From assembly GCF_019956555.1 (NCBI RefSeq), contig NZ_JAHBDQ010000026.1, positions 1-64,000 of the forward strand: a DNA stretch of 64,000 nt, read 5' to 3'. The stretch comes from Pseudomonas sp. A-RE-19. GTDB taxonomy: Bacteria > Pseudomonadota > Gammaproteobacteria > Pseudomonadales > Pseudomonadaceae. Under the pieces are notes generated by a model, which saw nothing but the letters and a program-made list of their open reading frames with translations, was not told where the DNA came from and did not search any database. Below, in pieces: positions 38,830 to 44,589 of this stretch. The first letter of the stretch is position 1. Each line of letters starts with the position of its first letter. The position numbers and the translations under genes are program-made.

Positions 38830-39135
38830 TCACCGATACGCCGTCGCAATTCCCTGGCGTTCGGTGATGCATTCCGGTGCGCCCATTTCGAACTCCCGGC
38901 AGATCAGCGGACGTTTCTCGTAGATGGTGCACATCATGCTGTTGCGATCCAGCGCGGCGCACCAACCGTCATCCAGCCGCAGCATGACTTCCCCACCCCA
39001 ATCGTCGGTATCGATAAAGCGCTCGGGCACACCGGTGTCGGTGATCAGCATCACTTCAAGCTGGCAGCAGCAGGCCGCGCAGGTTGAGCAGGTGACCGCA
39101 GGCTCGGCAATTTGCGTGTGGGGAATGGTTTTCAT
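38830..39135 (-). CDS. YkgJ-family cysteine-cluster protein
   Basis: A 101-residue protein with the CxxCxxCC motif (CSTCAACCC, ~residues 16-24), Cys59, and later Cys69, Cys79 and Cys88 in the MCTIYEKRPLICREFEMG segment, typical of the YkgJ/UPF0153 zinc- or iron-binding family. Biochemical role unknown. It reads away from pagL and is followed by the REP pair. Confidence 0.88.
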   Translation of the reverse strand: MKTIPHTQIAEPAVTCSTCAACCCQLEVMLITDTGVPERFIDTDDWGGEVMLRLDDGWCAALDRNSMMCTIYEKRPLICREFEMGAPECITERQGIATAYR

Positions 39136-39201: not shown

Positions 39202-39972
39202 CTAATCTTCGATCGGCGGATTGTTTCGCTCCATGCTCTTGTCGATTTCCAGTCCCGTCTGGTCGGGCTTTTGCGGCAGAGGCCAAAGGACAGGCATGAG
39301 CAGCTCCGGCAAGGGGAGTTCCAGTGGCCGATGCTTGAGCATGTCGAAGAGGTATCGCGCAGCTTTGTCCGCCGACCAGTCGAGGTGCATCGGAACGTTG
39401 ATGTCCAGGGGTGTATCCGTAAACCCTGGGCTGACCACGGTCATTTTGATGTTTTTCTGGGCCAGGTCGATGCGTAAGGACTCGAATAGATGACGCAACC
39501 CGGCCTTTGAATCGCCATAGGATTCGGCTCGTGGCAAGGGCAGGTAAGTCACCGAGCTGGCCATGCCCACCAGATGCGGCGCAGTGCCCGCCCGCAGCAG
39601 GGGCCGGGCGGCTTCAATGCAATAGCTGCTGGCAAGCAGGTTGGTGCGCACGATGTGCTCGATGATTGACGAGTCCAACTGATTGGCATCGACATATTCG
39701 CAGGTGCCCGCGTTGAGGATCATGGTGTCCAGAGAACCCCATTGCTTTGCAATCTGCTCGCCGATTTCGCGCACCTGTTGACTGTTGGTCAAATCCCCCG
39801 CAACCACCAGCACCTGTTCGGGATAACGCTGAGACAGGGCTTTCAATGGTGCCAGCGAGCGGGAGCTGACAGCCAGGTGGGCACCGGTTTTCAATATTTC
39901 TTCGGCCAGCGCGGCACCGATACCGTTGCTGGCGCCGGTCAACCAGTATCGCCTTGGAGGTGTAAGACTCAT
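39202..39972 (-). CDS. SDR-family oxidoreductase
   Basis: A 256-residue short-chain dehydrogenase. The NAD(P) loop is TGASNGIGAA (~residues 13-22), the structural NAG motif is LNAG (~90-93), and the catalytic Ser and YxxSK are in VGMASSVTYLPLPRAESYGDSKAG (in parts, ~136-160). Substrate unknown. It lies 64 bases downstream of the photolyase gene in the same direction, so it may be the last gene of the light cluster. Confidence 0.9.
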   Translation of the reverse strand: MSLTPPRRYWLTGASNGIGAALAEEILKTGAHLAVSSRSLAPLKALSQRYPEQVLVVAGDLTNSQQVREIGEQIAKQWGSLDTMILNAGTCEYVDANQLDSSIIEHIVRTNLLASSYCIEAARPLLRAGTAPHLVGMASSVTYLPLPRAESYGDSKAGLRHLFESLRIDLAQKNIKMTVVSPGFTDTPLDINVPMHLDWSADKAARYLFDMLKHRPLELPLPELLMPVLWPLPQKPDQTGLEIDKSMERNNPPIED

Positions 39973-40036: not shown

Positions 40037-41476
40037 TCATGATGGCAGGTTCTTGAATGCAGCCAAGGCTCGTTCGCGCGAAGTGCTCAGGTTGACGATA
40101 GGCGATGGATAATCCGCCTCACCGAATAATCCATCGAGGCTCGCGGGATTGTGCAGGTATTTTTTGTTCATTTTGTTGATCTGCGGCAACCAATGCTTGA
40201 TAAAAACCCCTTCGGCATCGAATTTTTCCGACTGGCTCAGTGGGTTGAAAATCCGGAAGTAGGGCGCCGAATCGGTGCCGGTGGACGAACTCCACTGCCA
40301 GCCACCGTTGTTTGCCGCCAGATCGCCGTCAATCAGATGCTGCATGAAGAAACGCTCGCCTTCACGCCAGTCGATCAGCAGGTTTTTGGTCAGGAACATT
40401 GCCACGACCATGCGCAAGCGGTTGTGCATCCAACCGGTTTCCAGCAATTGGCGCATGGCGGCATCAATGATCGGCAGGCCGGTACGGGCTTGCTGCCAGG
40501 CCTTGAGTTCTTCCGGGGCGTCGCGCCAGGCCAGAGCTTCGGTTTCCGGGCGGAAGGCGCGGTGCCGGGAGACCCGTGGGTAGCCCACCAGAATGTGCTT
40601 GTAGAATTCGCGCCACAGCAATTCGTTGATCCAGGTGACGGCGCCGGCCTTGCCGCTCTCGAACTCGCCCTGATTGCTGCGCAACGCGGCGTGCAGGCAC
40701 TGACGAGGGGAGATCACCCCGGCGGTGAGATAGGCCGAGAGCTGGCTGGTGCCGGGTTTTGCCGGGAAGTCGCGCTCACGGTGGTAGTCGTCGATTTGCG
40801 CTTCGGCAAAGGTATCGAGACGACGCCGGGCTTCGGCTTCACCGGCCGGCCAGAGGGCACGCAAGCTGTCGCTGGGCGTTTCGAAGCCCTCGACACTCGA
40901 CGGGACTTCATCGCTTTTGATACCCAGTGATGCCTGGGTGGTGGGGGCGCTAACCAGTTTCGGCAATGACGCATGCAGGCGTTGGTAGCAGACCTTGCGG
41001 AACTGGCTGAAGACCTGGAAATACGTACCGGTCCTGGTCAGCACGGTGCCCGGCTTGAACAACAATTGATCGAGGTGGCTGTGAAAGTCGATACCCTCGG
41101 CTTTCAGCGCTCGGGCCACCGCCGCATCCCGACGTGTTTCGTGAATGCCATATTCTTCGTTGACGTGCACCGCGTCGATTTTCAGCTGCCGGCAAAGATC
41201 GAGCAGCACCTTCGGTGCCTCATCCCAGCGAGAAGCCTTGCGAATCAGCAGCGGGATGTTCAAGGCGTCCAGCGCGTGGCGCAATGGGCTGAGGTTGCGC
41301 AGCCAGAAATCCACTTTGCAGGGGGCGTCGTCATGCTCCAGCCATTGCTGCGGACTCAACAAATACACCGCCACACTCGGACCACGGGCCGCGGCAGCCG
41401 AGAGGGCGGTGTTGTCGTGTAAACGCAAGTCGCTGCGCAGCCAGATCAATTGCATGGTGGTGTCCGCACGTTTCAT
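40037..41476 (-). CDS. phrB: Deoxyribodipyrimidine photolyase
   Basis: A 479-residue class I CPD photolyase that repairs UV pyrimidine dimers using blue light. The N-terminal Rossmann domain starts MQLIWLRSDLRLHDNTAL. The C-terminal FAD-binding domain has TAGVISPRQ, ELLWREFYKHIL, WQQARTGLPIIDAAMRQL and NNGGWQWSSSTGTD. I take the ATG at 41476, which overlaps the merR stop as TAATG, the same junction found between 43376 and merR; an internal ATG at 41455 gives the usual MQLIW start and is the alternative. Confidence 0.95.
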   Translation of the reverse strand: MKRADTTMQLIWLRSDLRLHDNTALSAAAARGPSVAVYLLSPQQWLEHDDAPCKVDFWLRNLSPLRHALDALNIPLLIRKASRWDEAPKVLLDLCRQLKIDAVHVNEEYGIHETRRDAAVARALKAEGIDFHSHLDQLLFKPGTVLTRTGTYFQVFSQFRKVCYQRLHASLPKLVSAPTTQASLGIKSDEVPSSVEGFETPSDSLRALWPAGEAEARRRLDTFAEAQIDDYHRERDFPAKPGTSQLSAYLTAGVISPRQCLHAALRSNQGEFESGKAGAVTWINELLWREFYKHILVGYPRVSRHRAFRPETEALAWRDAPEELKAWQQARTGLPIIDAAMRQLLETGWMHNRLRMVVAMFLTKNLLIDWREGERFFMQHLIDGDLAANNGGWQWSSSTGTDSAPYFRIFNPLSQSEKFDAEGVFIKHWLPQINKMNKKYLHNPASLDGLFGEADYPSPIVNLSTSRERALAAFKNLPS

Positions 41477-42417
41477 TAAATAAGCCCGCGCTGAATAAGG
41501 CCCTGATAGGCCGACAGGGGATCTTCGGCCAGGGATAAATCAGCTATGGCAGTGGTTTTTGCGGACAACTCGGTGTGGTGAATGCGTACCGTTGGTCCGG
41601 CAATTATTTTTGGGCAGCTGACGCCGTTCAAAAGTTTCGACAGCTGCGAAAGATTCATGGCTTTGCTGGAATACAGCAGTACGCCCCGGGCTTGCAGGTG
41701 ATCAACCGCCAGCGTCAACTCGCCGGGCGGGAGTGGCCAGTCGAAAACCTCCACCGGGCAATCGGTGCTGCTGATCAGCCAGGCCGTGAGCCATAGATGA
41801 GGCTCCATTGGCAGGTCTGAGTGATTGATCAGCAGTAGCGGCGCGGTGCGTAACTGACGGTTGTTATGGTAGATCCTTGCGCCGAATTTGCTGCGTAACC
41901 ATGAATAGACAAACACCCGCTCCATCTGCGCGCCGAACTGGCCTTGCCAGCGTTGTTCCAGTTCCTCAAGCAACGGCATCAACAGGTGTTCGCACAAAGT
42001 GCGTGGCGGGTACAACGCCATCGCCTGGTTCACGGTGTCATCGAGGGTGCGTTCGGCCAGTTGGGTAACCGCTTGCAGCAATGTCTGGCGCAACACTTGC
42101 CAATCGTTCCCTACCGGTACGGTCAGCACCTGAGGCGTATCGAGCAGTTGCTTGACCTGGCTGACAGCCACGCCGCGATTGAGCCAGGTGAGGATCGTCA
42201 GGATCCGCTGAACGTGTTCGGCGCAGAACAGCCGATGCCCCTTGGGTGTGCGTTGAGGCACGATCAATCCATAACGTCGTTCCCAGGCGCGCAAGGTGAC
42301 AGCGTTGACCCCGGTCTGCCGGGTCACTTCACGGATGGGCAGCCAGCCTGCGTCCAGCGCCTTCTTGAAGTCGGTGCCGAGGTCTTCGCTGGCGCTGGTG
42401 TCCGGTGGGTTTTTCAT
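41476..42417 (-). CDS. MerR-family regulator, class II LitR/CarH-like
   Basis: A 313-residue regulator. The MerR helix-turn-helix is at ~27-95 (LPIREVTRQTGVNAVTLRAW, ERRYGLIVPQRTPKGHRLF). The C-terminal part has the helical bundle of the CarH/LitR family but lacks the cobalamin-binding DxHxxG motif, which places it in class II LitR. In P. putida such regulators, working with a LOV photoreceptor, control photolyase, ferrochelatase and related genes. Stop and start overlap both neighbours as TAATG. Probable operators lie at 43399-43472 and 44535-44585. Confidence 0.85.
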   Translation of the reverse strand: MKNPPDTSASEDLGTDFKKALDAGWLPIREVTRQTGVNAVTLRAWERRYGLIVPQRTPKGHRLFCAEHVQRILTILTWLNRGVAVSQVKQLLDTPQVLTVPVGNDWQVLRQTLLQAVTQLAERTLDDTVNQAMALYPPRTLCEHLLMPLLEELEQRWQGQFGAQMERVFVYSWLRSKFGARIYHNNRQLRTAPLLLINHSDLPMEPHLWLTAWLISSTDCPVEVFDWPLPPGELTLAVDHLQARGVLLYSSKAMNLSQLSKLLNGVSCPKIIAGPTVRIHHTELSAKTTAIADLSLAEDPLSAYQGLIQRGLI

Positions 42418-43376
42418 TAGATCGCGTTTCGCAGGCTGAGGTTTTCCGGGTGCGGTTGCAGATAAACCTGCTGCGCGATGTATGGATCCGGGTGTTGGCG
42501 AAAGTAGTGTTTGAGCAATGTCAGCGGCACCACCAGCGGCACGATGCCGTGGCGATACTGGCTGATGACGTGCTGCACCTCCTGCTTGTCTTCAGGGCTG
42601 ATAGCCTGTTTGAGGTAGCCGCTGAGGTGTTGCAGAACGTTGGTGTGGGTGCGACGCGTGGCGCATTTTTTCAAGGCGGCCATCAGTTCGCTGAAATAGC
42701 GCGGGCCGAGCGCTTTGGGATCGGTCCGGCCCATGCTGCCCAGCAAGTTGCCCAAGGTTTTGTATTGCACCGGGTTATGGGCCATCAGCAGGTATTTGTA
42801 GCGCGAGTGAAAGTCAGTAAGGCCGCGCCGGGTCAGACCTGTTTGCTGCAACTGTTGCCAGGCGCTGTAGGCGAACACGCGGGTGAGGAAGTTTTCCCGC
42901 AGCACTGGATCGTTGAGCCGACCCTCTTCTTCTACCGGTAAATCGGGATGCAGCGCGCAGAAGGTCCGGGCGTAAATTCCACGGCTACCACTGTCCACTG
43001 GCGCGCCGTTGGCGTGGTAGACCTTGACCCGTTCCAGGCCACATGAAGGGGATTTCTGCATGAAGATATAGCCGCTGATGTCGCCCAACTCCATCGCCAT
43101 TTTCTGAGCAAAGCGGGCCAGCGGCAGGGTGACGTTGAGCTCATGATTGAGCGTGCCGACGGCCTCCGGACGTTCCGGGTCGCCGATCAGGCGGATCGGT
43201 TCGCGAGGAATGCCCAAGCCGATGGCGACTTCCGGGCACACCGGAACGAAATCGAAATAATCAGTGAGGGTGAGGCTGCACAGCCGTGACGCCTTGTGCC
43301 CGCCGTTGTAACGCACTTCGGCTCCCATCAGGCAGGCGCTGATGGCGATTTTGGGTTTCATGGCTGTGTGGGGCAT
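42417..43376 (-). CDS. DUF523-DUF1722 (YbgA-type) protein
   Basis: A 319-residue two-domain protein. The N-terminal DUF523 (~residues 8-150) has conserved cysteines in ISACLMG, VCPE and SPSCG; the C-terminal DUF1722/YbgA domain (~185-300) begins FHSRYKYLLMAHNPVQYKTLG. In E. coli ybgA is co-transcribed with phrB, which supports a link to light or DNA damage. The start at 43376 has AGGTG about six bases upstream. First gene of an operon with merR and phrB. Confidence 0.88.
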   Translation of the reverse strand: MPHTAMKPKIAISACLMGAEVRYNGGHKASRLCSLTLTDYFDFVPVCPEVAIGLGIPREPIRLIGDPERPEAVGTLNHELNVTLPLARFAQKMAMELGDISGYIFMQKSPSCGLERVKVYHANGAPVDSGSRGIYARTFCALHPDLPVEEEGRLNDPVLRENFLTRVFAYSAWQQLQQTGLTRRGLTDFHSRYKYLLMAHNPVQYKTLGNLLGSMGRTDPKALGPRYFSELMAALKKCATRRTHTNVLQHLSGYLKQAISPEDKQEVQHVISQYRHGIVPLVVPLTLLKHYFRQHPDPYIAQQVYLQPHPENLSLRNAI

Positions 43377-43398: not shown

Positions 43399-43422
43399 TG
43401 TACAGACTATTAGGTCTGTACA
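43399..43422 (-). promoter_or_regulatory. LitR-type operator, TGTACA-N12-TGTACA
   Basis: TGTACA at 43399-43404 and 43417-43422, separated by exactly 12 bases (GACTATTAGGTC). This fits the consensus T(G/A)TACA-N12-TGTACA that I recall for class II LitR of P. putida. It is downstream of the predicted -10 of the 43376 operon. Confidence 0.75.
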
Positions 43423-43432
43423 ACATTATTTC

Positions 43433-43472
43433 ATCATAGATTCAAAGGTGTACAAGTCAAATTTTTTGTATA
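43433..43472 (-). promoter_or_regulatory. Promoter of the YbgA-merR-phrB operon with LitR-type box
   Basis: On the minus strand, -35 TTGACT (43460-43455) and -10 TATGAT (43438-43433) are 16 bases apart. A second box, TATACA-N12-TGTACA (43472-43449 read on minus), overlaps the -35 and the spacer. Promoter and operator are both visible; LitR control is inferred. Confidence 0.75.

Positions 43473-43527: not shown

Positions 43528-44589
<1,062 letters not shown>

Follow-up and report, generated by a model that had tools for sequence, protein, structure and literature searches.

Two putative class II LitR operators over the promoter of a photolyase operon in Pseudomonas sp. A-RE-19

Results

Organization of the operon and its promoter

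The window, that is, the whole stretch of 64,000 nucleotides from Pseudomonas sp. A-RE-19 that was analysed, carries on its minus strand a RudS-type gene followed by genes for a MerR-family regulator, named LitR1 here, and a DNA photolyase, with one-base overlaps between rudS and litR1 and between litR1 and phrB. Two further co-directional genes, one 64 bp after phrB and the other 66 bp past the first, probably belong to the same operon. RudS proteins remove 4-thiouridine, a near-UV-sensitive tRNA residue, and an operon with PhrB, LitR and RudS has been noted previously (PMC11417400). The features of the operon and its control region are as follows.

43472-43449, minus strand: box 1, TATACA-N12-TGTACA, TATACAAAAAATTTGACTTGTACA, equivalent of the published Site 1 and conserved in relatives
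43460-43455, minus strand: -35 hexamer, TTGACT
43438-43433, minus strand: -10 hexamer, TATGAT, after a spacer of 16
43427-43426, minus strand: predicted transcription start, 6-7 nt past the -10
43422-43399, minus strand: box 2, TGTACA-N12-TGTACA, TGTACAGACCTAATAGTCTGTACA, equivalent of the published Site 2
43387-43382, minus strand: likely ribosome-binding sequence, GAGGTG
42417-43376, minus strand: RudS-type gene (YbgA; 2-thiouracil desulfurase domain and DUF1722), ATG at 43376
41476-42417, minus strand: class II LitR-type MerR regulator, LitR1
40037-41476, minus strand: DNA photolyase, PhrB
39202-39972, minus strand: short-chain dehydrogenase (SDR)
38830-39135, minus strand: CxxCxxCC (zinc/iron-chelating domain) protein

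The original prediction placed a minus-strand promoter, TTGACT-N16-TATGAT, ahead of the operon, with one box overlapping its -35 and spacer and a second just downstream of its -10, and re-reading of the sequence bore out letters, strand and coordinates. Box 1 spans the entire -35 plus six bases of the spacer, and box 2 begins 10 nt 3' of the -10. The promoter is the top sigma-70 match between 38000 and 45000 (10/12 positions), in a scan that overall yielded no more than shuffled sequence (3 vs a mean of 2.6). The predicted start lies about 50 bp ahead of the RudS/YbgA ATG, and a start at that position would put box 2, which contains the inverted repeat TGTACAGAC-N6-GTCTGTACA, within the transcribed leader, close to where the mRNA begins. 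Very probably the region acts as the switch controlling a light-damage repair operon, with two putative repressor sites over the promoter.

Frequency of the operator motif in the window and the genome

The consensus of class II LitR operators is T(G/A)TACA-N12-TGTA(C/T)A (PMC9758184), and two exact matches to it lie over the one promoter. These are the only two exact matches (TRTACA-N12-TGTAYA) in the 64 kb. Markov-simulated windows contain 0.017 such matches each, and none of 60 simulations produced a pair lying within 74 bp. With two mismatches allowed the window holds 8 matches against a shuffle mean of 2.21, a number equalled in 2 of 100 shuffles.

In the genome of 6,220,856 bases (6.22 Mb) the exact consensus occurs at box 1 and box 2 only, and the reversed-pattern control gave 0. 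At two mismatches, 270 matches per strand were found vs 241 for the reversed control, and a regulon is therefore not definable by a loose motif search. The exact consensus is unique to this promoter in this genome, and matches with one or two mismatches are near background. Eighteen places have one mismatch (a hand count from the genome listing); 13 were inspected, of which 8 lie in coding-like frames (at least 100 residues, GC3 above 0.62) and 5 outside, among them a site before a FAD-dependent oxidoreductase gene. The site before folM in the same genome is weak (TGAACA-N12-GGTATA, two mismatches).

A third box upstream of the operon

The site before the FAD-dependent oxidoreductase gene is absent from the original prediction. 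It belongs to the following arrangement.

44585-44562, minus strand: third box, TATACC-N12-TGTACA, one mismatch, before the FAD gene
44540-44535, minus strand: half site, TGTACA, before the FAD gene
43528-44514, minus strand: FAD-dependent oxidoreductase gene, co-directional with the operon and preceding it, ATG at 44514

Of 81 sequences from named Pseudomonas loci, the window included, 77 were usable, and in 74 of these the 71-base leader of this gene (44514-44585) hardly varies; in the other three the start found is evidently in the wrong gene. Since the pattern for this box was loosened after the window's own site had been viewed, only its conservation, and not its identity, counts as evidence. 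The FAD gene is a possible second target. No good sigma-70 hexamers were seen by eye in its leader and none were listed there in the promoter scan; the leader is perhaps served by another sigma factor.

Conservation of boxes and promoter

Of 398 genomes in the genus, 254 carry the box pair with 26 bp between the boxes at up to three mismatches. If other spacings are allowed, the number with a pair must be higher, because four of five close relatives that fail the 26-bp search have 27 bp between the boxes; the fifth (G183) lacks half of box 2. A set of 111 loci was assembled from 80 named loci, 30 from the genus box-pair search and the window, and the promoter was present at an accepted score in 107. 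The remaining loci are L039 (diverged promoter), L089 (broken box 2), L104 (N11) and L123 (N13). Among the 107 promoters the -35 is TTGACT in 103 and the -10 is TATGAT in 82, TATGCT in 22 and TAAGAT in 3, although the scan score favoured TTGACT and TATGAT and these letters were thus partly selected for. The gap from the -10 to box 2 is 10 nt in 86 of them, 11 in 13 and 9 in 8. A one-strand pattern that combined the -35, the -10 and box 2 with the right half of box 1 was searched across the family and matched 137 of 398 genomes, which represent 7 of the 19 genera. Seventeen of the 137 come from the six other genera, some at three mismatches; the reversed control gave zero among the matches listed.

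Natural variants of box 2 occur in L175 (genome G183; one half lost), L104 and L123, the last two of which keep the inverted repeat despite the altered spacing. In L039 (genome G057) and in genomes G072, G190, G127, G258, G189 and G277 the 26 bp spacing of the pair is kept and TTGACT is gone; the -10 is TATGCT in G277 and TGTGCT-like in the others, and in G057 the box pair still precedes RudS. Loci of the L039 type may have a weaker or different promoter beneath the same operators.

Constraint on the interior of box 2

Mutual information was compared among all 66 pairs of interior columns in 194 distinct box 2 sequences, and the dyad pairs 7/18, 8/17 and 9/16 rank highest. A tree built from 136 rudS genes gives 12, 20, 15 and 15 changes at columns 7, 8, 17 and 18 vs 34-42 at the inner columns, and box 2 is therefore better written as the inverted repeat TGTACAGA-N8-TCTGTACA. 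With sequences whose box 2 is broken left out, the tree gave 12 double changes from one Watson-Crick pair to another over the six dyad pairs vs 0.47 per non-dyad pair; one non-dyad pair reaches 3, and the non-dyad pair 7/17 has the highest raw co-change ratio. Covariation is modest once the tree is used, so box 2 is an extended constrained dyad in which co-evolution is not proven.

An inverted repeat with such dyad signals in a predicted leader might act mainly as an RNA hairpin that controls mRNA stability or translation, rather than as a protein site, and box 2 is indeed more foldable than versions with a shuffled interior (mean -8.5 vs -4.7 kcal/mol). Selection on RNA, however, should spare G-U on the sense strand and not A-C, and the two are about equally frequent both among isolated interior mismatches (21 G.T, 19 A.C) and among breaks placed on the tree (17 G.T, 16 A.C). 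Mean folding energies are likewise the same for the sense and antisense strands (-8.51 and -8.49 kcal/mol), the sense strand folding better in 77 of 194 sequences and the antisense in 100. The similar tolerance of G.T and A.C, together with the lack of an overall folding advantage for either strand, speaks for constraint at the DNA level; the data are compatible both with a symmetric protein site and with a palindrome subject to replication-linked correction. The repeat is real, the strand-asymmetry test gave no RNA signature, and we consider the hairpin reading unlikely. On the plus strand the palindrome is terminator-like in a scan, and no likely plus-strand gene ending there was seen in the ORF list.

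LitR1, a second LitR and a short LOV protein

LitR1, whose nearest named relatives by protein are strains of P. frederiksbergensis, P. farris, P. mandelii and P. lini (94%), matches PF13411, PF00376 and PF02607 (MerR HTH and B12-binding_2), and in the Pfam search it had no match to the B12-binding domain PF02310; the motif DxHxxG is also absent. This is the domain make-up of a class II LitR as described for PmlR1 (PMC9758184). The genome encodes one further LitR, LitR2 (C13:79349-80158), which is 34% identical to LitR1 and matches PF13411 and PF00376, plus PF01527 below its cut-off; PF02310 is not among its Pfam matches and DxHxxG is missing. Both proteins thus combine a MerR HTH with the lack of a PF02310 match, as expected of class II. 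The HTH regions of the two share VTLRAWERRYGLI, and either LitR could therefore use the boxes.

Seven LOV/PAS matches were found in the genome and only one is of the short type (C13:78113-78520), a frame of 173 residues with 64% identity to PpSB1-LOV and the DCRFLQ cysteine (Cys54); the other six lie in frames of at least 538 residues and match at 25-30%. On C13 the order is short LOV, a 201-residue protein, LitR2 and folM (NCBIfam), then folE and folX as judged by eye from translations, so that the short LOV is one gene away from LitR2 and both lie upstream of folM, an arrangement shared with P. mendocina. The 201-residue protein (L025, 8645-9250) has no Pfam or NCBIfam match; in the same conserved cluster of P. 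mendocina a gene PME15565 is named (PMC9758184). We infer that the C13 short LOV is the cognate of LitR.

LitR1 might instead itself be an adenosyl-B12 photosensor, like CarH or class I LitR, since it matches CarH over the HTH and B12-binding_2 part and since operators persist in genomes without a short-LOV match. Its lack of a PF02310 match and of DxHxxG, and a score of 75.6 against the CarH NCBIfam cut-off of 400, argue otherwise, and in P. putida B12 is stated not to be required (PMC9758184); we regard such a role as very improbable. The operon's MerR protein is probably not the light sensor, given that it has no B12-binding domain match and that another contig, C13, carries a short LOV close to a second LitR; the sensor is most likely this short LOV. 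Repression in the dark is probably exerted by LitR2 of C13, either by itself or jointly with LitR1.

Genomes with LitR1 and no short LOV match

Exactly one LitR match was found in 53 of 398 genomes, a hand count with at most five candidates scored per genome; rescoring of all candidates again gave one each. A LitR2 query splits the 53 into 9 with a LitR2-type gene (E 3.4e-94 or better) and 44 with a LitR1-type gene (E 2e-44 or worse). A LOV match below 1e-50 is present in 8 of the 9 vs 2 of the 44 (G091 and G142), and at search thresholds of 1e-25 and 1e-15 no short LOV was matched in the other 42. The ninth LitR2-type genome, G275, has no LOV match at 1e-15 and an in-frame stop within its LitR2-type gene (C11:59669-60547); the pair may be decaying together there. 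In G001-G080 all 70 genomes with at least two LitR, the second being counted without individual typing, have a LOV match below 1e-50. The four genomes without any LitR match have LOV matches in long frames only.

Among the 42 genomes that have LitR1 alone and no short-LOV match, 24 keep the box pair (hand count), its position before rudS being confirmed for those of the 24 with a locus. The published LOV anti-repressor therefore cannot act unchanged in these genomes, and the LOV route is not the sole one in the genus. In 11 of the LitR1-only, LOV-less genomes (hand count) LOV matches fall in open frames of about 540-570 residues, a possible substitute input. Tentatively, and with somewhat more doubt than confidence, we suggest that in the part of the genus lacking LOV and LitR2 the LitR1 protein is signalled otherwise, by a LOV histidine kinase, by LitR1 itself or without light, that the LOV/LitR2 pair is a detachable light input on a stand-alone LitR1 stress circuit, and that box 2, an extended inverted repeat constrained at the DNA level, is maintained by LitR1 alone. 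A literature search through titles and abstract openings found no work on LitR1 operators without a short LOV, which is not to deny that such work exists. Species with LitR1 and the boxes but no short-LOV match provide a natural experiment that could show LOV to be either essential or an add-on.

Discussion

We interpret the region as a dark-repressed, blue-light-induced promoter of the rudS-litR1-phrB-SDR-CxxCxxCC operon from which a class II LitR is removed by LOV, with a probability of about 0.87. The reading joins the sites, promoter, gene set and conservation at the locus, and the LOV and second LitR of the same genome, to binding, repression, LOV release and light induction that are carried over from work on P. 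mendocina and P. putida. In the dark, an oligomer of class II LitR would occupy box 1, covering the -35, as well as box 2 at the very start of the transcribed region, and would thereby block initiation by the sigma-70 polymerase. Under blue light the C13 short LOV would form a Cys-FMN adduct and bind the HTH part of LitR, which would leave the DNA; the operon would then be expressed, supplying photolyase, RudS to erase 4-thiouridine from tRNA, and additional LitR1, and on return to the dark the added LitR1 would shut it again. The altered or damaged box 2 of some relatives (L175/G183, L089, L104 and L123) counts against this scheme.

Promoters activated by MerR proteins typically have spacers of 19-20. 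That LitR, as a member of the MerR family with a box extending into the spacer, is a classical activator acting between badly spaced hexamers is hardly credible, given a spacer of 16, hexamers that fit the consensus at 10/12 positions, and the repressor activity of PmlR2 in vitro (PMC9758184).

The original prediction, which had also proposed autoregulation, is supported in outline and corresponds to a published promoter type; autoregulation follows from the position of the MerR gene, second in the operon, together with the published light induction of pmlR1 in P. mendocina (PMC9758184). The match that it proposed to the class II LitR consensus of P. putida likewise holds, as consensus, two-site layout and promoter letters all fit the PplR1/PmlR2 operator (PMC9758184).

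Comparison with known systems

The closest counterpart is P6650 of Pseudomonas mendocina NBRC 14162, the first promoter of the pmlR1-phrB region, which has the same TTGACT-N16-TATGAT, with Site 1 over the -35 and Site 2 between the start and the ATG (PMC9758184). P6650 is light-inducible and repressed by the class II LitR PmlR2, whose footprint covers +32 to -45 of one strand and +37 to -54 of the opposite strand; once illuminated, LOV binds PmlR2 and prevents it from binding DNA, and in in vitro transcription illuminated LOV lowers the repression (PMC9758184). The distance from start to ATG is 48 bp in P6650 vs about 50 bp predicted in A-RE-19, and both organisms have, at a different genomic location, a second LitR in the neighbourhood of a short LOV and fol genes, which in P. 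mendocina is the pmlR2 region (PMC9758184). Whereas both sites of P6650 are TGTACA-N12-TGTACA, box 1 of A-RE-19 begins with TATACA. PME6650 is labelled a hypothetical protein (PMC9758184), and we infer that it is RudS. No ufaM was recognised by eye adjoining the A-RE-19 operon.

CarH and class I LitR, the adenosyl-B12 photosensors, share with LitR1 a MerR HTH followed by a B12-binding_2 domain, but LitR1 is without the B12-binding domain match and the DxHxxG motif, and in the related LOV-LitR system the light sensor, unlike in CarH, is a separate protein. The regulon of PplR1-3 and PpSB1- and PpSB2-LOV in P. putida KT2440 has the same operator consensus (PMC9758184), and KT2440 likewise has phrB, litR and rudS in one operon (PMC11417400); it differs in having three LitR and two short LOV proteins (PMC9758184), where the A-RE-19 genome has two LitR and one short-LOV-type match. 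The type of switch is thus already known from P. mendocina, and A-RE-19 is very probably a further genome under the published LOV-LitR light switch. The A-RE-19 locus ties RudS and photolyase to one promoter of the LOV-LitR type, and to the known systems the present analysis adds the likely sensor elsewhere in the genome, an exact motif unique to the promoter, a refined box 2 and lineages without LOV.
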